From Alphaproteobacteria bacterium UBA4588 (GTDB taxonomy: Bacteria; Pseudomonadota; Alphaproteobacteria; Rhodobacterales; Rhodobacteraceae), in contig CAJJAW010000008.1 of assembly GCA_905182195.1 (NCBI GenBank), forward strand, positions 62,001-126,000: DNA of 64,000 nucleotides, written 5' to 3'. This document shows positions 39,012 through 48,783 of the stretch, piece by piece. The notes beneath the pieces were generated by a model, which was not told where the DNA came from, ran no database searches, and saw only the letters and a list, made by a program, of their open reading frames with translations. Within the stretch, counting starts at the first letter, position 1. Each line of letters opens with the position of its first letter. The translations under genes were made by a program, and so were the position numbers.

Positions 39012-39797
39012 TTATGACTGGATTAATGCTAACATGCCTTGGCCTTGGGCATTGGCCTGAGCGAGCATTGCCGTGCCCGCTTGAGCAAGGATTTGGCCCT
39101 TGGCCAGCTCGGTTGTTTCAGCCGCGAAATCTACATCTAATTTTGATGAGACATCAAGCGCATAGCCTGCTGCGAGAGACGTCAGTAGCGTCATCTTATT
39201 GGTTGCCTTTACGAACTGATCGGCTACTGCAATTTGCCGTCGCATCAACAGTGCGAGAGTATCGGCAATTTGGCCATCACCAGTACCGCCATCTATTGCA
39301 GTCGCTAAGAATGTCAGCGACTGGTCACCAACCAAAATTCAGTGAGCCTGATTCATAGACCAAAACTCACTGCTTTGTTACCGCCAGCATCAAAGCCTTC
39401 GCACCCCATTTGGAGTTATCCTGAATCGCATCAAATTCGTTTCAAGATCATCGCTTCCAACTTTATATTGGCTATGTCTGCAGCCGAATTCAAACCATTC
39501 TCACCTAAAGTGTTGAGCTCTTGAACACGCGTCATGAATGGCTTGCAACGATTTACATCATTGTTTATGACTTCTATGACCTGCATAGCTTCAGAAAGGA
39601 TTTTGAATACCAATTTTGATACTTGCCAGGTTGTTTTCTGTATTGCCAGCAATCACAGTTGAGGCGGGCCGGTCACCGGCAGTAACCCCACGCCGACCAG
39701 TAGCCAATCGCTCCATACTTTTAGCAACCTTATTTGAGTTGTCATCCAAGGCCGCTTGGACTTTGTAAAATGCTGAACCTGCGCTGATAGTTGTCAT
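39012..39797 (-). pseudogene. Flagellin, copy 3 of 3 (frame-disrupted)
   Basis: The N terminus is MTTISAGSAFYKVQAALDDN (39797-39591) and the C terminus is [20 protein letters not shown] then [11 protein letters not shown] (39335-39012). The middle (39652-39431 and flanking) is shifted. The span is exactly 786 bp, equal to 261 codons plus stop, so the indels cancel. The protein would be a minimal D0/D1 flagellin without the D2/D3 outer domains. This copy is the least damaged at its C-terminal half. It has the same RBS (GAGAGTGAC) as copy 2. Confidence 0.8.
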
Positions 39798-39834
39798 GTC
39801 ACTCTCCTATTATTCAAGTGCTAAAAGTTTTTAA

Positions 39835-40628
39835 TTATGACTGGATTAGTGCTAACATGCCTTGGCCTTGGGCATTGGCCTGGGCGAGCATTGCCGTGCC
39901 CGCTTGAGCAAGGATTTGGCCCTTGGCAAGCTCGGTTGTTTCAGCCGCGAAATCTACATCTAATTTTGATGAGACATCAAGCGCGTAGCCTGCTGCGAGA
40001 GACGTCAGTAGCGTCATCTTATTGGTCGCTTTTACGAACTGATCGGCTATGTTACATTTGCTGCGCATCAACAGCTGCAAGATCAAGTAGCAATTTTGGC
40101 ACTCACCGTACCGCCATCTATTTCAGTCGCAGAGAATGTCCTGTACGGTAACGACACCAAAAGCCACTGATGCCTGGTTCAGACCAAAATTCACAGTTTA
40201 GTTAGCGGTCACCAAATAAAGCCTTGGCACCCCATTTGGAGTTAGTCCTGAATTGCATGCAAATTCTAGTTTCAAGATCAGCCGCTTCCAACTTTATATT
40301 GGCTATGTCTGCAGCCGAATTCAAACCATTCTCACCTAAGTGTTCAGCTCTTGAACACGCGTCATGATGGCTTGCAACGATTTTATATCGTTGTTTATGA
40401 CTTCTATGACCTGCATAGCTTCAGAAGGATTTTGAATACCAATTTTGATACTTGCCAAGTTGATTTCTGTATTGCCAGCAATGACAGTTGAAGCAGGGCC
40501 GGTCACCGGCAGTAACCCCACGCCGACCAGTAGCCAATCGCTCCATACTTTTAGCAACCTTATCTTGAGTTGTCATCCAAGGCCGCTTGGACTTTATAAA
40601 ATGCTGAACCTGCGCTGATAGTTGTCAT
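39835..40628 (-). pseudogene. Flagellin, copy 2 of 3 (frame-disrupted)
   Basis: The same gene as copies 1 and 3 by sequence. The N-terminal frame from 40628 breaks within the first 30 codons; EAMQVIEVINNDIKSLQAIM is read at 40557-40336. The C-terminal frame 40086-39835 is intact. The central 150 bp, around 40100-40270, differs from the other copies mainly by scattered insertions and deletions. It lies 37 bp upstream of copy 3. Confidence 0.8.
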
Positions 40629-40664
40629 GTCACTCTCCTATTATTCAGTACTAAAAGTTTTTAA

Positions 40665-41451
40665 TTATGACTGGATTAATGCTAACATGCCTTGGCCTTG
40701 GGCATTGGCCTGGGCGAGCATTGCCGTGCCCGCTTGAGCAAGGATTTGGCCCTTGGCAAGCTCGGTTGTTTCAGCCGCGAAATCTACATCTAATTTTGAT
40801 GAGACATCAAGCGCGTAGCCTGCTGCGAGAGACGTCAGTAGCGTCATCTTATTGGTGCTTTTACGAACTGATCAGCTATGACTAGATTTGCTGCGCATCA
40901 ACAGCTGCAAGATCAGTAGGCAATTTGGGCACCATCAGTACCGCCATCTTTATGCAGTAGTCGAATGTCCTGGGAATGGTCACGCACCAAAATTCGTGAT
41001 ATCCTGATTCAACCAAAATTCACTGCTTTGTTATGGTCCGCAAATAAGGCCTTGCACCCCATTTGGAGTTAGTCTGAATTCGCGCAAATTCTAAACTAAG
41101 ATCAGCCGCTTCTAACTCTATATTGGCTATGTCTGCAGCCGAATTCAAACCATTCTCACCTAAGTGTTCAGCTCTTGAACACGCGTCATGATGGCTTGCA
41201 ACGATTTTATATCGTTGTTCATTACTTCTATAACCTGCATAGCTTCAGAAGGATTTTGAATACCAATTTTGATACTTGCCAAGTGTATTTCTGTATTGCC
41301 AGCAATCACAGTTGAAGCAGGGCCGGTCACCGGCAGTAACCCCACGCCGACCAGTAGCCAATCGCTCCATACTTTTAGCAACTTTGTTAGAGTTGTCATC
41401 CAAGGCCGCTTGGACTTTATAAAATGCTGAACCTGCGCTGATGGTTGTCAT
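40665..41451 (-). pseudogene. Flagellin, copy 1 of 3 (promoter-proximal, frame-disrupted)
   Basis: The ATG at 41451 starts MTTISAGSAFYKVQAALDDN, with MERLATGRRGVTAGDRP conserved. The frame then shifts (41399-41160 gives STVIAGNTEIHLASIKIGIQ). The C-terminal 60 codons (40847-40665) are identical to the other copies. The intervening 40850-41100 carries many indels. It has its own upstream region with a possible sigma-28 box; copies 2 and 3 follow with 36-37 bp gaps, so they may be read through. Confidence 0.8.
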
Positions 41452-41519: not shown

Positions 41520-41637
41520 GGGAAACCTTGGACACTTCAAAGTAATGTCAAAATAATGACACTTGCTGTGTGTCAAATATACTTTTTGGTATCGATAAAT
41601 TTAAATGATAGACAGGGTTTATCAAAGGAGAAAAATC

Positions 41638-43102
41638 ATGAAACTTGATTTCAATATTGGTATAAGTCAGCGGCAAGGCTTAACCCTCACTCTTCAGGTG
41701 CAACAGGCTATAAAGCTTTTGCAGATGACCAATCTTGAGGTAAACGAATACATAGAAGAGAATTTCGCAATAAATCCATTTATCGAGTTGAAAGATCAAA
41801 TTTCCCGCGAGCAACAGTCAAACAAGAGCGACGCCAAATCAGAAAAACCATCAACGGCTCAAGCTTTAGAAGAGACACCGTTCGGCACTGAGAAAAATAA
41901 AACTAAAACCGAGATAGAAAACCAGTTTGAAACAGGTGAGAGCTTCAAAACTAAAAGTACAGTCTCAAAAGAGCAAAGCGACTTCGATCCGGTACAGATG
42001 ATAAAGTCTCACGAGAAATCATTATATGTCCACTGCGGTGACTACATAGCGAACGTCAACTTTTCAGTTCAAGAAAGACTGGTGGCTTATAAATTTCTTG
42101 AAGAGTTAGAGGCCACTGGTTGGATTTGCGTTAGTGTCCAAGATGTTGCAAAGGAAACCTCCACAAATGTGGAAATTGTTCAAACTGTTTTAGAAAGCCT
42201 ACAGCAAATAGAACCGGCTGGGTTATTTGCTAGAACATCTCTCAGAGTGTTTAACACTACAGGCCGCCGAATTAGGACTGCTCGATGGGACCCTTAAAAG
42301 CATTTTAGAAAACTTACATCTTTTGGGTGGTGGTAAGTTTGATTTATTAAAACGCCGCTGTGGCTGCACTGACCAAGAACTTTCAGACACCTTGAAAATA
42401 ATTAAATCGTTAAACCCAAAACCCGGGCTCCAGTTTTCATCTGAAAGTATCAATATACGGGAGCCAGACTTAAAAATTACCAAAAATGATGATGGGTGGC
42501 TGGTAACCTTAAATAAATCAACTTTGCCGAGCGTAGTTATTGATAAAAGTTACGCAAAGACAGTTAGAAAAACTAAAATGGATGTGGATCAAAAAGAATT
42601 TATAAAAGAGAAAATTGCTGAGGCTAACTGGCTCAAAAATGCCTTGCAAAAACGCAATGATACAATGCTTCGCGTAGGTGCAGAGATTGCGAAACGCCAG
42701 ACCGAATTTCTAGAGAAAGGTCCAAGCTTTATTCAACCAATGGTGCTGAGAGACGTGGCAGAGGCTGTCGAAATGCATGAAAGCACAATCAGCCGTGTGA
42801 CGACAGGCTCATTGATGGAAACACCACAAGGAACACTAGAGTTAAAAGCTTTTTTCAGTGTTGGCTTGCAACTGAATGATGATCAAAGTTCTCAATCGTC
42901 AGCAGCAGTAAAATTTAAAATTAAAAAACTTATTGAGAGCGAAAAGCCTCAAAATCCAATTAGCGATGATGAGATAGTCGATACATTGAAGGGCACAGGG
43001 ATAAATGTTGCGAGGCGGACTGTCGCAAAATATCGGAAAGTTCAGAATATTCCAGCATCTTTTATGAGAAAGCGTCAAAGCACCTTAGCTGGAATATTGT
43101 GA
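41638..43102 (+). CDS. rpoN: RNA polymerase sigma-54 factor RpoN (one frameshift)
   Basis: The ATG at 41638 has AAAGGAG upstream and starts MKLDFNIGISQRQGLTLTLQ, with the glutamine-rich region I (VQQAIKLLQMTNLEV) that contacts activators. The frame breaks near 42235. The second frame, from about 42240, continues LSECLTLQAAELGLLDG and runs to 43102. It includes the HTH VAEAVEMHESTISRVT (about residues 372-387) and the RpoN box ARRTVAKYRK, differing from ARRTVAKYRE only in the last residue. About 487 residues in total. A flagellar-cluster-specific rpoN fits the many -24/-12 promoters here; a housekeeping copy may exist elsewhere. Confidence 0.92.
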
Positions 43103-43262
43103 ATACAAGAAAGCATTAAGGTAAACAGGCAGAAAACTCTGCACACTGCGTTCCATTGGTAAGCCACGTAATATCGTTTCACTCCATGTATATATATCCA
43201 TATAGGGGCGTATTGCCCTTGAACCCCAATCTAATGCCTAGACGTCCAACCTTCCTTCATAA

Positions 43263-45698
43263 TCATCTTGATCTCTCCTTAAAGTTCATTAGCTCATCAA
43301 AGGCTCCATTAAGAAGCGGCTCATATTTGCGCCATTGCTGAGAACTACCTTGGTAAACTTTTTTCCGTACTTGTTGCTGTGAGGCAGTCCTGACGCTCCG
43401 CTTATTCGCCTGCGGCGAAAGACATGCATTCTCCCATTCGAGTTCTAGGTATTGAATTAGGTTTCTGCTCTCAGTCTCTTGGTCAGTCGTAAGTTTTTCA
43501 TAGTTCAAGTGATAAATTCGCTCACTATATGAAGTCTGCAAGAACTGCATAAAATCGCTATACAGTGCATAGTAAGCTGTTACGTCTTTAAGGTCATAGC
43601 AGTAACCAAGGCCGTTTGCAGGAAAGTAGTGTTTATAGTTTGACCAACAAGTTGCAGCCGCATCTCGCTGAACATGAATAATTTTAGCCTCTGGAAAAGC
43701 CGAACAAATTAGAGGGATATACCTAAAGTTTTGTGGCATCTTATCTGTGATCAAACTATTGCCATCTGACCGCTTTATTAATTCGCTCAGGTAGTTTTGT
43801 CGGAATTCTGATACGGCCTCTGTAGTTGCCTGAGTTACACCTTGAGCCAACACCCCCCCAAAACGCCCGATATCTTTCAACTCACCGGCAGCCGTAACAT
43901 CTGAATGACATGAGATGATTTGTTCCACGAGCGTAGTGCCTGACCTTGGCATGCCAAGGATGAACACTGGCACAGGCCCACTATCGTTTGCGATGCTCTT
44001 CAGTGCATGTTTCAGTATGGAAGGTTGTGCTTTCCTCAAACTGGTGAAGAGGTTGTGATCTTGATCAATCGTGTAGCCCAGCATCTTTTTACGCAGGGCA
44101 TTCCCCTCAGCAAAATATGAAAAGGCTTTTTTAGATTCACCCAAATCCTCATGAGCCTTTGCCAATGCAAAGCTAAGATTACATCGAGCGGCATCATTTA
44201 GCGTCTTGTCTTGGTGGAGTCTTTGCATCTCAAGAAAGTGAGAATTTTCAGATGTATATATAGTGATTTTGCTGAGATTACGATGAGTATCTGCATAGTC
44301 TGGTCTGATCGCCAGTGCCTTCTTGTAGCTCTTTATGGCAGCGTCTGGGTCACCCTTATCCATCAGGGCTGCTCCCATATTATTATAGGCCTCAGCATAA
44401 TCAGGCTTAATTTGGACAGCCTTTTTATAGCTCTGAATAGCTGCCTCTTGATTACCCTTTTCACGTAGGGCATTTCCCATATTAGTATAGGTATCTGCAC
44501 AGTCAGGCTTGATCTTTAGGGCCTGCTTGTAGCTGTCTATTGCTGCGTCAAAGTCACCCTTTTTATTCAGGGACCTTCCCATATTATTATAGGCCGTCAG
44601 CATAGTCGGGCTTTATCTTTATAGCCCGCTTGTAGCTGTCTATGGCAGCGTCTGGCTCACCCTTATCATGCAGGGCAATACCCATATTATTATGGGCATC
44701 AGCAAGAGTTAGGCTTGATCTTAAGAGCCAACTTGAAGTTCTCGATAGCAGCGTCAAAATAGCTCATATCATTAAGTACTTACGCCATATTATTATAGGC
44801 GTCAGCATAGTCAGGCTTGATCTTGATTGCCTGTTTGTAGCTGTCTATGGCAGCGTCTAAGTCACCCTTTCCTTAGAGCGCATTCCCATATTGAAATAGG
44901 CTTCAGCATAGTCAGGCTTGATCTTGAGTACCTGCTCGAGGCTCTCTATGGCAGCGTCAAAATCGCCACTTTGAATTAATTCTCCACCAAGGAGTGAATT
45001 CAGTTCATAGTCATCTGGCTTTAACTCAACCGCTTTCCTTAAGTTCTTTATCGCTTGCTCAGTATCTCCTTGCGAGGAATATATCTGGCCCAGCATGGCG
45101 TAGCTCACCTCCGACTGAGGCCAATATTCTGTTGCCTTGGTGTAACTGGATATCGCCAAATCTATTTGACCCAGCTCAAAATAACATTTCCCCAAGGTAA
45201 TATTCAAAATTCCAGAGCTTGGGTAAGTCTCCAGTAAATTCAGACATGCTTCGATAGCATCATCAAACTTTTGTTGGGTTATAAACTCATCAATTTCACG
45301 AGTGTCTTTTGCCAAGGGTTCCTGATTTTCGATATCAAGACGGTGAGAAATGGCCTCTATGTTTTCGCAAGACATTCCAGAACTTTTGCTGCTTTAATGA
45401 GTGCCTTTGCTTCAATAATTCTTTCTAACTTAGCCAACGTATCTATATAACTTGCCCAAAATAAGCTGACGTTAGGGCTGGCGGTCAGGGCAAACTTGAA
45501 AAACTCGAGGGCTTTGTCTAATTCATTTTTAGCAACAAGCACGATCCCGATGTTATGATTAGCTTCACAATGATCCGGCTGTATGGACAAAATCTCATGA
45601 TACATCTTTTTTGCAGCACTTAAGTTACCTGCGTTATGTTCTTCCAAGCCCTTATCAAAAATAGACACAATATCAGCAACTCTAGGATTTAATTTCAT
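43263..45698 (-). CDS. TPR-sulfotransferase protein, copy A (frameshifted)
   Basis: About 812 residues. The N-terminal 340 or so are tetratricopeptide repeats (unit of 34, for example AIDSYKQALKIKPDCADTYT). The C terminus is a P-loop sulfotransferase domain with the 5'-phosphosulfate-binding loop ILGMPRSGTTLVEQIISCHS and the 3'-phosphate site VQRDAAATCWSNYK. It probably transfers sulfate from PAPS to a protein or glycan. Open pieces: 45698-45357, 45375-44857 and 44603-43263. The TPR stretch 44600-44860 is broken by several indels. A perfect sigma-54 promoter (45740-45755) lies 42 bp upstream. Confidence 0.82.
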
Positions 45699-45739
45699 GA
45701 TTTACAATCTCAACCCCTAGTCAATTATTAATGATAAAC

Positions 45740-45755
45740 AGCAAAATTTGTGCCA
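45740..45755 (-). promoter_or_regulatory. Sigma-54 promoter of TPR-sulfotransferase copy A
   Basis: The minus strand reads TGGCAC-AAATT-TTGCT, a full consensus. Confidence 0.88.
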
Positions 45756-45811
45756 TAATTACCTAAGCAAATGATTTGGGCAGTGCTGACCTCTTCAAGC
45801 CCACCCTAAGT

Positions 45812-45934
45812 GTGAGAAGTGCCTATACAACTCCACTAGTAGATGCTCATTATTTAATGTGTAAGGGTGGGGTGTATTACTTCACCAGACATGTGCCAAA
45901 AGTGCCGAAGAGGATTAAGTTGGTCTTAGGCTAG
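45812..45934 (+). pseudogene. Possible tyrosine-recombinase (phage integrase) N-terminal remnant
   Basis: About 40 codons from a GTG at 45812 encode VDAHYLMCKGGVYYFTRHVP and then KVPKRIKLVLG before a stop. This follows the HxLxxRGGxYYFRRxVP pattern with which many tyrosine integrases begin (DUF6538-type arm-binding segment). Nothing integrase-like follows, so it would be a truncated relic. The window between the duplicated TPR-sulfotransferase genes is a plausible scar of mobile-element activity. The match is short and by eye only. Confidence 0.35.
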
Positions 45935-45936
45935 GC

Positions 45937-48173
45937 TCATATATATTGGGCCGTTTTGAGTGTATTTTGAAAATGGTTACTAAATTCATTAGTCGGTAAA
46001 AAGCTCGGGTTGTTTATGTCATTAGTAGCAATAAGCAAATCTGTGGATAAAAAACTCTCCATTGCTACTATGATCTCATTAGGAGATTTCATGATGCTAT
46101 CAAAGGAAACAGTGGTTACTCTATTTTGTAACATATTTGAAAAAATTTCCCATAACTCATCATACCAACGTATATGGGCCATTATGGCTTTTGGATCGTA
46201 AGAATAATGATTTCCTGAAACGTAGTCAGATATAAAAATGTTCGATGCTAAATCCATCTTGTCCCGAGATACGAACACAAAATAAGAGTTGGAAAATGAG
46301 TCTGCTAAATGGGTAATTGCGTGTGCTAGCGATGGGAGAGTGGATGTTATCAACTTATAATCATTAGATTTTAGTTTATTTTCATCCCCATAAAAAATAT
46401 CTGATATTTCAAGTTCCTTGTTCGGGGATTTGGTTCTCAAAAATTCATCATTTTTAATGTACTCATAAAATGGATGAACTAATTTGCTATTGCACAAGAG
46501 TTTTTCTAATGATGTTTTGCCTGATCTTGAAGGGCCTAAAATAAAGATTTTTTTTATGGAACTTCTTTTGTTCTTCCAACTATGGGGGCTCCATCCTTTT
46601 ATTTTTTCCAATGTTTTTAATAATTGGAATATGTTCTAAAAGCAGTTCGGCTTTTATGGTTTCTTTCTTTAAAATATTGGCCTCAAGAAATAATTTAAAA
46701 GCCAGATCAGTTTCCTTTTGGTGACGATGCAAATTAGCTTTTTGGAACTTTGATTTAATTGAAACATTTGGTGTTTTAAAAGGAATCAAACCTTTTTTCT
46801 CTAAATTATTCAAAGTTTGAGAGGGTAATGTGCCTGTTGGAACTTTCATTATATTTTCTAAAGCGTTGGCCGTTTCAGGATTAATGTTAAGGGCCTGCTG
46901 ATAGCTGTCTATTGCAGCTTCTAAGTTACCCTTACCCTGTAAGGCATTACCCATCTTGGTGTAGGCTTCAGCACAGTCTGGCTTAATCTTAAGAGCCTTT
47001 TTGTAGCATTGCATAGCCCCATCTAAGTCACCCTTTGCGTTTAGAGCGACGCCCATATTGTTGCAGGCATCAACATAGTCTGGCTTAATCCCAAGAGCTT
47101 TCTTGTAGCTTTTTATAGCAGCTTCTAGGTCGCCCATATTCTTCAGAGCGGTCCCCATATTGTTAACGGTTTCGGCATAACCCGGCTTGATCTTGTGAGC
47201 CTTTTTGTAGCTTTCCACAGCTGAGTTTAGGTCACCTTTACTCATTAGTGCATTACCCATGTTGTAGTAGGTCTCAGCACAGTCTGGCTTGATCACAAGA
47301 GCTTGCTTGTAGCTTTTTATAGCAGCTTCTAGGTCGTCCATATCCTTCAGAGCTAGCCCCATATTGTTAAGGGCTTCAGCATAGTCTGGCTTGGTTTTGA
47401 GAGCCTTTTTGTAGCTTTCTACAGCTGAGTTTAGGTCACCTTTACGCATTAGTGCATTACCCATGTTGTAGTAGGCCTCAGCGCAGCCTGGCTTGATCTT
47501 CAGTGATTTTTTGTAGCTATTTATAGCTTCATCTAAATCACCCTGTGATGAATACACTTGGCCAAGCATTACATAGCTCAACTCCGACTGCGGCCAATAT
47601 TCTGTTGCCTTGGTGTAACTGGATATCGCCAAATCTATTTGACCCAGCTCAAAATAACATGTTCCCCAAAGTAATATTTAAAATTCCAGAGCGTGGGTAA
47701 GTCTCCAGCAAACTCAGACATGCTTCGATAGCATCATCAAACTTTTGTTGGGTTATAAACTCATCAATTTCACGAGTGTCTTTTGCCAAGGGTTCCTGAT
47801 TTTCGGTATCAAGACGGTGTGAAATGGCCTCTATGTTTTCGCAAGACATTCCAGAATTCTTTGCTGCTTTAATGAGTGCCTTTGCTTCAACAATTCTTTC
47901 TAACTTAGCCAACGTATCTATATAATTTGCCCAAAATAAGCTGACGTTAGGGCTGGCGGTCAAGGCAAACTTGAAAAACTCGAGGGCTTTTTCTAATTCA
48001 TTTTCAGCAACAAGCACGATCCCGATGTTATGATTAGCTTCACAATGATCCGGCTGTATGGACAAAATCTCATGATACATCTTTTTTGCAGCACTTAAGT
48101 TACCTGCGTTATGTTCTTCCAGACCCTGGTTGAACAAAGCAACAATATCGAAATTTTTGGAACGCATTTCCAT
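45937..48173 (-). CDS. TPR-sulfotransferase-like protein, copy B (frameshifted)
   Basis: The N-terminal 170 residues are almost identical to copy A (GLEEHNAGNLSAAKKMYHEI...). Next come about nine TPR units (47632-46580, for example SYKKALKIKPDCAEAYTKMG). The C-terminal domain (46611-45937) has a GPSRSGKTSLEKLLC phosphate-binding loop and a SRDKMDLASNIFISDY segment that replaces the usual RDxxxxxxS. It is a divergent sulfotransferase-like fold, not the same as copy A's. Two frame changes (about 47640 and 46600). About 745 residues. A sigma-54 promoter lies 36 bp upstream. Confidence 0.78.
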
Positions 48174-48208
48174 AATAGACCCTTAGGTTTCCGTACCCTA
48201 CAATTAGG

Positions 48209-48224
48209 TGCAAAAACTATGCCA
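48209..48224 (-). promoter_or_regulatory. Sigma-54 promoter of TPR-sulfotransferase copy B
   Basis: The minus strand reads TGGCAT-AGTTT-TTGCA, with correct -24/-12 spacing. Confidence 0.82.
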
Positions 48225-48612
48225 GCCTGTACCTAAGCTTACAAAACTCAGTTTAATAAGCACTTGAAGCCATATATAAAACTAACTGGCGCCTGCCAGG
48301 CTCGTTCTTCTAGCGGCATGCAGTGGAGCAGTATCAAGCCTGTTCTGCATTTCTAAGCTCAGATCAGTGTAGGCATTTTCGTAAACTTTCTACCGGAAGT
48401 AGTTTTGGAGAGTTTTGCAATTTTCAACTGCGGTCTGCGGCATTTGTAGTCTTGCTGGCATTTACCAGGTCTGAGTTTGTATCAATGAGTGGCGAAAGTA
48501 ATGTTCGTCTGGTGCATATCGAAGTGTAGGGGCGCAGATCACAACCCTTTCCACCCTATCTAATATGCAACCAAAAAGCGCGCCTGGCTTGAACCTAAAT
48601 ATTAAATAAGCT
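48225..48612. other. 388-bp intergenic stretch without a convincing gene
   Basis: It lies between the copy B promoter and the small-gene operon ending at 48613. A short hairpin CTGGC-GCCT-GCCAG sits at 48286-48299 with no T-tract. A 68-codon plus-strand open frame (48323-48529) has no ribosome site or recognisable homology and is not called. Confidence 0.5.
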
Positions 48613-48783
48613 TTAATTTTTCATAGTTTTTATTAATGTCTTAGGCTTTTTTATAACGTTTCTCTCAAACCTAACTTTATTGCCTGTATCCATTTTTCTA
48701 ACAATCAAACTGACATCTGCTTCATTTGAGGCAGCTATTGTCATGTAATGAACTTTATCTTCGAACATCGTAAAAGAACGCAT
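48613..48783 (-). CDS. Small basic protein, 56 residues, unknown
   Basis: The sixth and last gene of the operon downstream of flhB. The sequence runs MRSFTMFEDKVHYMTIAASN, EADVSLIVRKMDTGNKVRFE and RNVIKKPKTLIKTMKN. It reads like a small beta-rich domain with a lysine-rich tail. The ATG is 4 bp after the stop of the upstream membrane protein, which supports it despite its size. No family recognised. Confidence 0.5.
   Translation of the reverse strand: MRSFTMFEDKVHYMTIAASNEADVSLIVRKMDTGNKVRFERNVIKKPKTLIKTMKN

Follow-up and report, generated by a model that had tools for sequence, protein, structure and literature searches.

Two genes (copies A and B) encoding TPR proteins with a C-terminal sulfotransferase domain lie in the flagellar island of this genome. 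That both belong to the sigma-54 flagellar regulon is well supported at the sequence level. We read them, with about even confidence, as FlmG-like, TPR-coupled sulfotransferases of this regulon that would sulfate flagellin or its glycan. In the assembly both copies are broken up, as is much of the flagellar island, and their present activity is therefore only putative.

Two interrupted TPR-sulfotransferase genes beside rpoN

The window, meaning the whole 64-kb stretch of contig C8 that was analysed, contains the features given below. An intact TPR-sulfotransferase copy of this genome sits on contig C4, outside the flagellar island (the C4 copy). Two same-genus genomes, G001 and G002, served for comparison.

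39015..41279 (-): pieces of several flagellin-like copies (tblastn with G001 flagellin)
41605..43102 (+): rpoN, the genome's sole sigma-54 match, broken into two frames near 42230
43106..48646 (no strand): insertion beside rpoN carrying copies A and B; absent from G001 and G002, which have ~265 bp there
43263..44603 (-): copy A, last open frame, 446 aa, with about three TPRs and a complete TPST-type sulfotransferase domain (Sulfotransfer_3, TPST1, predicted fold)
44604..44856 (-): copy A, TPR stretch disrupted by several frame changes (alignment with copy B and the C4 copy)
44857..45375 (-): copy A, middle TPR frame, 172 aa (ORF and domain match)
45357..45698 (-): copy A, N-terminal TPR frame, 113 aa (ORF and domain match)
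45740..45755 (-): perfect -24/-12 site TGGCACAAATTTTGCT, 5' of copy A (pattern scan)
45937..46611 (-): copy B, divergent sulfotransferase domain, 224 aa (Sulfotransfer_3, 4.3e-11)
46580..47632 (-): copy B, main TPR frame, 350 aa (ORF and domain match)
47649..48173 (-): copy B, N-terminal TPR frame, 174 aa (ORF and domain match)
48209..48224 (-): perfect -24/-12 site TGGCATAGTTTTTGCA, 5' of copy B (pattern scan)

The first-pass annotation had modelled two TPR-sulfotransferase genes; neither copy is one open frame, and both are split by frameshifts. Its claim that copy A has complete PAPS-binding motifs held, with PRSGTT, the TPST-type Glu, the TDK lysine and the R...S motif all present. We take the PAPS motifs, the Glu and the Lys to have their usual roles. 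The last 446 aa matched Sulfotransfer_3 (PF13469) at 1.4e-39 (137 bits, cut-off 27), and the sulfotransferase domain matched TPST1 at 6.8e-10. Fold prediction, which covered the 268-residue end of copy A, placed 13 TPST chains first (TM-score 0.64-0.69 by query length). TPST1 and TPST2 (PDB 5WRJ, 3AP1 and others) are the closest solved proteins in sequence and fold, with P-loop, Glu and Lys aligned, but identity is ~20% and neither the TPR fusion nor the bacterial host is shared. An APS kinase is encoded in the genome.

The domain of copy B is more divergent. Its Sulfotransfer_3 match reached 43.9 bits, and a motif alignment found neither the TDK lysine nor the TAS-QVR motif of copy A. It aligned at 33% to an intact TPR protein of another genome, G012. 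On the TPR frames, MamA, PilW and other NCBIfam TPR models scored far below their cut-offs and were set aside as generic TPR similarity.

Some flagellar motors contain TPR proteins as structural parts (described in PMC11870540), and copies A and B could likewise be structural or chaperone-like, the transferase domain being immaterial. We regard this as very improbable: the P-loop residues, Glu and Lys are invariant across 42 aligned sulfotransferase domains, and the flagellar collar model FlcA stayed far below its cut-off.

Alignment with copy B and the C4 copy revealed copy A to be a mosaic, with a B-type N-terminus and a C4-type catalytic end. Nine nonsynonymous and 13 synonymous changes separate copy A from the C4 copy, giving an omega of 0.20. 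Flagella genes are present in G001 and G002, which lack the insertion.

Frameshifts are not confined to the two copies: they also split rpoN, fliP and fliM, and many flagellar neighbours are interrupted. The C8 stretch showed 22 frame changes over 15,833 aa, contig C5 none over 6,355 aa. Copies A and B may be pseudogenes, mobile and recombining genes that inserted into an already decaying flagellar island, with relic promoters and nothing flagellar sulfated in this strain. The single flagellin fragment found in the genome, which is below the family cut-off, points the same way, as does the detection of FlhA in only 6 of 16 same-genus genomes. We nevertheless consider this explanation unlikely. 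Shift-aware alignment of 13 shifted genes counted 41 single-base shifts, yet no stop event inside a gene; the omega of 0.20 and the intact promoters also speak against it. Genome G002 has a similar excess (12 frame changes in 13,929 aa), which may point to a shared assembly cause. Fewer frame changes were seen in the window with G012 as reference (4 in 7,319 aa), and homopolymer slippage was not evident by eye at the listed shift sites. Assembly indels seem to us somewhat likelier than decay as the source of the interruptions.

Sigma-54 sites in the flagellar island

The consensus promoters proposed at 45740 and 48209 were both perfect matches to TGGCAYRN4TTGCW. Across the 2.62-Mb genome this pattern was found at 18 places, compared with 2 (1+1) for the backward control. 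Contig C8 holds 8 of the 18, seven of them within the window. If sites fell at the genome-wide density, the Poisson probability that two 120-nt upstream stretches would hold two perfect ones is estimated at 3e-7. The first start codon follows the site by 41 nt in copy A and 35 nt in copy B, a spacing of 35-41 nt that is also found at flgB, flgG and the flgP-like gene.

The same promoters had been proposed at five flagellar genes, and at four the sites were perfect. These lie 5' of a frame matching FlgE, of a Flg_bb_rod protein taken as flgB, of a FlgE/F/G-type protein taken as flgG, and of an LPP20-like protein taken as flgP (25.1 bits, slightly below the 25.9 cut-off). The fifth, a frame named fliO, has a site with one mismatch and no Pfam match. 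The genome's single rpoN match adjoins copies A and B inside the flagellar island. Site quality, spacing and this location of the only rpoN together support regulon membership, and sigma-54 would be expected to drive both copies. The C4 copy has no perfect -24/-12 site in its 20-kb stretch.

Intact relatives and their flagellar linkage

Two sets of relatives were sampled. Copy A was the query for the first, of 79 loci. For the second, of 80 loci, the domain of locus L142, chosen for its flagellin neighbourhood, was searched against a draw of 396 genomes; 151 genomes matched, and one place from each of 80 was hand-picked among the listed rows. Intact TPR-sulfotransferases lay within 10 kb of flagellar genes at 6 of 79 and 5 of 80 loci, and flagellin was in the stretch at seven of these. 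With the queries used, the remaining 148 of 159 relatives (73/79 and 75/80) had no flagellar gene nearby. The flagellar queries were taken from the window's genus and from first-round matches, so alphaproteobacterial flagella are under-detected; L111, for example, at first gave one match. The background for flagellin linkage was assumed rather than drawn (1-3 flagellin loci in each genome, 60% of genomes flagellated, regions of 18 kb), and the Fisher count used tree rows as units, so that L111 enters three times.

Two of the counted loci are weak: L240 is separated from flagellin by 6 kb that include RecG and RelA/SpoT genes, and L088 lies ~9 kb from an FlhA piece at a contig end. Left out of the count were a FliG-like 153-aa frame (L129), NtrC-type matches (L041, L117, L141) and MotA/MotB-type matches (L110).

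In unrelated bacteria, intact TPR-sulfotransferases adjoin flagellin, sit between flagellin-flaF loci or directly follow fliP in a fliM-N-O-P row. Carriers of flagellin-linked genes include Arhodomonas aquaeolei DSM 8974 and Sneathiella glossodoripedis JCM 23214. These arrangements lend independent support to a flagellar target. Of 193 relatives, 4 have a -24/-12 site that departs from the pattern at no more than one position, compared with 0.22 per shuffle. Three of these relatives are flagellum-linked; the remaining one, L071, is closely related to copy A, and its host genome has intact FlhA. Among 29 ORFs sharing the N-terminal module, 3 had a site at up to two mismatches, and only that of L071 is credible.

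On the sulfotransferase-domain tree, label shuffles did not discriminate (500/500). A clade of seven (98% SH-aLRT) has four flagellum-linked members (L142, L144, L223, L224). Linkage is not fixed in it, since L227 and L234 have no flagellar match and L143 adjoins NeuB.

The NeuB neighbour, the intact C4 copy outside the flagellar island and the many unlinked relatives would also fit real sigma-54-regulon enzymes acting on a surface polysaccharide, a lipid or a non-flagellar protein co-made with motility. This appears quite unlikely to us, given the flagellin-specific neighbourhoods in unrelated families and the protein-tyrosine sulfotransferases as closest solved structures. The first-pass suggestion of flagellar sulfation keeps its regulon sites and gains flagellin-linked intact relatives, but is weakened because most relatives are unlinked, the block is absent from G001 and G002, the C4 copy is without a perfect site and both genes are interrupted.

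Proposed flagellar sulfation and known systems

Flagellin glycosylation is known in bacteria; for sulfated bacterial flagellin, no report was found in the open-access literature searched. In this genome the genes came into the flagellar island as an insert next to rpoN. In the sulfation reading that we prefer, their N-terminal TPR solenoid would capture a protein of the flagellum, most likely flagellin, while it awaits export in the cytoplasm. Their C-terminal TPST-like domain would use PAPS to sulfate a hydroxyl, either on that protein or on a glycan it already carries. Substrate, chemistry and timing are all our inference.

More broadly, we suggest tentatively, at somewhat less than even confidence, that bacterial flagella carry sulfate. 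Flagellin-locus TPR-sulfotransferases, which occur in several families of alpha- and gammaproteobacteria and in some cases have sigma-54 sites of their own, would sulfate flagellin or its O-glycan in the cytoplasm, ahead of export, as an FlmG counterpart recruited more than once. If so, negative charge on the filament could alter swimming, phage adsorption and recognition by other cells.

FlmG is the Caulobacter flagellin O-glycosyltransferase, whose TPR N-terminus binds flagellin and which modifies it in the cytoplasm (as described in PMC7591256). The intact relatives share its layout of N-terminal TPR and C-terminal transferase. A sulfotransferase domain replaces the glycosyltransferase, however, so they are at most FlmG-like. 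No GT41 glycosyltransferase was found in this genome, which counts against the preferred reading. Glycan sulfotransferases are described for Halobacterium salinarum (PMC11980604). They likewise modify glycans on prokaryotic glycoproteins, but these are archaeal N-glycans made by different machinery.

The island resembles the Fla1/RpoN2 system of Rhodobacter sphaeroides (PMC7277832) in its rpoN inside the flagellar locus and its sigma-54 flagellar promoters; it differs in its split rpoN and its sulfotransferases, none of which appears in the available part of the Fla1 description. In the flagellar cluster of Octadecabacter arcticus pOA238_118, no TPR-sulfotransferase is annotated in the 42 kb inspected, unlike here, but rpoN and flagellin likewise lie among flagellar genes, and its FlhA is 58% identical.

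Promoter sites and the single rpoN

Copies A and B, two genes coding for TPR-sulfotransferases (ST), lie beside rpoN in the flagellar island of the window.

5500-54700: flagellar island, where single-base frame changes concentrate
39015-41279, before rpoN: flagellin region, larger than in G001 (same genus), with pieces of several flagellin-like copies
41605-43102: rpoN, the one match in the whole genome
43263-48224, minus strand: copies A and B, B upstream of A
44604-44856, minus strand: disturbed stretch of copy A

Both copies have a perfect -24/-12 site on the coding strand, as the first-pass annotation had claimed. The distance from site to first start codon was 41 nt for copy A and 35 nt for copy B; for the frames taken as flgB, flgE, flgG and flgP it was 41, 48, 35 and 38 nt, respectively. 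These frames were named by NCBIfam (FlgE) and by the Pfam families Flg_bb_rod, FlgE/F/G-type and LPP20, the last slightly below its cut-off. The frame previously named fliO had a site with one mismatch and no Pfam match.

The pattern TGGCAYRN4TTGCW matched 18 times in the 2.62-Mb genome, versus twice for the backward pattern. Eight matches fell on the window's contig, seven of them inside the window. At the genome-wide density, two sites would fall by chance into two 120-nt upstream stretches with a probability of ~3e-7. With the single rpoN match inside the window, -24/-12 promoters suggest use of the flagellar sigma factor. Sites, spacing and the lone rpoN match uphold the regulatory observation, that both copies are wired into the flagellar sigma-54 regulon, and we infer from sequence that their expression would depend on sigma-54.

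A 16-nt match identical to the window's was also found at G000:C1:18986 and G000:C4:178141, where in the latter case it overlaps the beginning of a 900-aa open frame. With rpoN in a flagellar island, the window resembles the Rhodobacter sphaeroides Fla1 locus (rpoN2), as described in the consulted part of PMC7277832. The closest plasmid FlhA, at 58% identity, was that of Octadecabacter arcticus pOA238_118, whose cluster holds rpoN too. This plasmid and the nearest named sulfotransferases suggest that the source organism is a marine relative of the Rhodobacteraceae. FlhA was present in 6 of the 16 genomes of the genus searched, UBA4588 included. The G+C content of the island was 0.40-0.45, versus mostly 0.46-0.54 in most other sampled 10-kb bins; it was lower in G001 and G002 (same genus) as well.

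Frame changes in the flagellar island

The first-pass annotation had listed copies A and B as genes; neither is open in the assembly, and each is divided into three frames. rpoN, fliP, fliM, flgE and others are likewise split. With G001 as reference, 14 of the 52 ORFs (15,833 aa) compared on the window's contig were affected, with 22 frame changes in all; 16 ORFs (6,355 aa) of contig C5 had none. Shift-aware alignment of 13 shifted window genes gave 41 single-base shifts and two stop events, each no more than two residues from where the reference ends. Seven tblastn pieces also had in-frame stops, which probably fall within shifted stretches or where frames end.

Single-base indels are numerous and nonsense changes scarce, a pattern closer to residual assembly errors than to long decay; such errors may have arisen from low coverage of an island that varies between strains. 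Recent decay of the island is a possible cause. An excess was also seen in G002 (12 in 13,929 aa, whereas its downstream genes had 1 in 2,478 aa). That of G001 was smaller: 7 in 15,335 aa with G002 genes as reference, 4 in 14,000 aa with window genes. The comparison genome G012 had none in 6,333 aa; with it as reference, the window had 4 in 7,319 aa. Copies A and B are not callable as working genes from the present assembly. Searches of the UBA4588 genome found only a flagellin fragment, below the cut-off, and no intact flagellin.

Transferase domain and origin of the copies

The copy A domain matched Sulfotransfer_3 (1.4e-39) and kept the P-loop, Glu and lysine, in agreement with the full PAPS motifs annotated earlier. 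Across 42 aligned domains, the P-loop G, R, S and G, the TPST-type Glu and the TDK lysine were invariant. Its best solved relatives were protein-tyrosine sulfotransferases (6.8e-10), and the first fold matches of its AlphaFold2 model (pLDDT 89.7) were 13 TPST chains. The genome can supply PAPS, since it encodes an APS kinase. Searches for a GT41 glycosyltransferase in UBA4588 and three other genomes of the genus gave no match.

The distance from rpoN to the next gene was ~265 bp in G001 and G002, and 5.5 kb, holding both copies, in the window. With both neighbouring genes pointing towards it, the insert requires promoters of its own. The N-terminal DNA of A and B was ~97% alike over 478 nt (counted from the alignment). 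Beyond it, copy A matched an intact 749-aa copy on contig C4, at 97-99% in six 150-nt blocks over codons 100-400 of its last frame. Because its N-terminus is like B and its later part like C4, copy A is a mosaic whose junction lies inside the TPR repeats. A comparison of A with C4 over 386 codons counted 9 nonsynonymous against 13 synonymous differences (omega 0.20), which suggests that selection maintained both once copied. The C4 stretch had no perfect -24/-12 match. The copy B transferase domain was 33% identical to the C-terminal part of a 754-aa TPR protein that is intact in G012; it is thus a divergent lineage and not just a ruin.

Relatives beside flagellar genes

The copy A search gave 79 named loci, six with flagellar genes within 10 kb (L079, L088, L090, L111, L142, L144). 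A 396-genome draw added five flagellum-linked loci among 80 fetched regions (L223, L224, L240, L241, L257). A Flagellin_N-bearing flagellin lay in the stretch at seven of these 11 (L090, L111, L142, L223, L240, L241, L257), versus about one of 159 regions expected by chance if each genome has two flagellin loci, a rough estimate that takes its background as assumed, not drawn. In the remaining 148 regions the queries used found no flagellar gene, and the family is therefore not a flagellar one overall. The arrangements are specific:

Gene order at flagellum-linked ST loci
Arhodomonas aquaeolei: flgK, flgL-type gene, one small gene, ST, flagellin, flaG, fliD
Sneathiella glossodoripedis: flbT, fliC, flaF, DUF1217, ST, second ST, partial ST frame, fliC, flaF
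K189A: fliD, two small frames, ST, small opposite frame, flagellin
L257: flagellin, ST, flagellin, flaG, fliD, consecutive
L224: fliM, fliN, fliO, fliP, ST (fliP-ST gap 5 bp)
L241 (4908-14909): flagellin, TPR-GT41, TPR, ST, GT41-FkbM
L223: flagellin 250 bp from ST

The row beside the L241 flagellin looks like a flagellin glycan locus with sulfation included. In the domain tree, four flagellum-linked domains fell within one seven-member clade (98%) and the remaining ones elsewhere; copy A paired with C4, near cells labelled Rhodobacteraceae.

Sites with at most one mismatch preceded 4 of the 193 ST ORFs with enough upstream DNA, versus 0.22 per shuffle and none in the reversed control. Three of these belonged to L240, L142 and L144, all flagellum-linked. 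The fourth belonged to L071, which is closely related to copy A and comes from a genome whose FlhA is intact; its site is perfect and lies 27 nt ahead of the start. The L142 site overlaps the listed start codon, which may have been set too early. By tree rows, sites were found in 3 of 13 flagellum-linked versus 1 of 180 others (P 9e-4; L111 counted as three rows). At L071:41-5113, the ST with the perfect site is preceded by a TPR protein whose end, judged by eye, looks methyltransferase-like.

The Caulobacter glycosyltransferase FlmG likewise joins a TPR half to a transferase half; its TPR half binds flagellin and its other half glycosylates it, according to the consulted part of PMC7591256, whereas copies A and B are TPST-like. 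By analogy, the TPR half would hold flagellin and the TPST-like half would sulfate flagellin or its glycan before export; substrate and chemistry are thus tentatively assigned. The earlier proposal that a flagellar component is sulfated gains from ST genes by flagellin loci in independent genomes and loses from the window genes not being open. With the independent genomes, a flagellar reading of these TPR-sulfotransferases is plausible.

Among the papers listed by full-text literature searches, judged by titles and the starts of abstracts, none reported an enzyme that sulfates flagellin in bacteria. The methods section of a preprint (PMC11870540) describes how TPR candidates were left out when they lay near flagellar clusters and carried domains such as sulfotransferase, so the ST-flagellar neighbourhood has already been met in passing.
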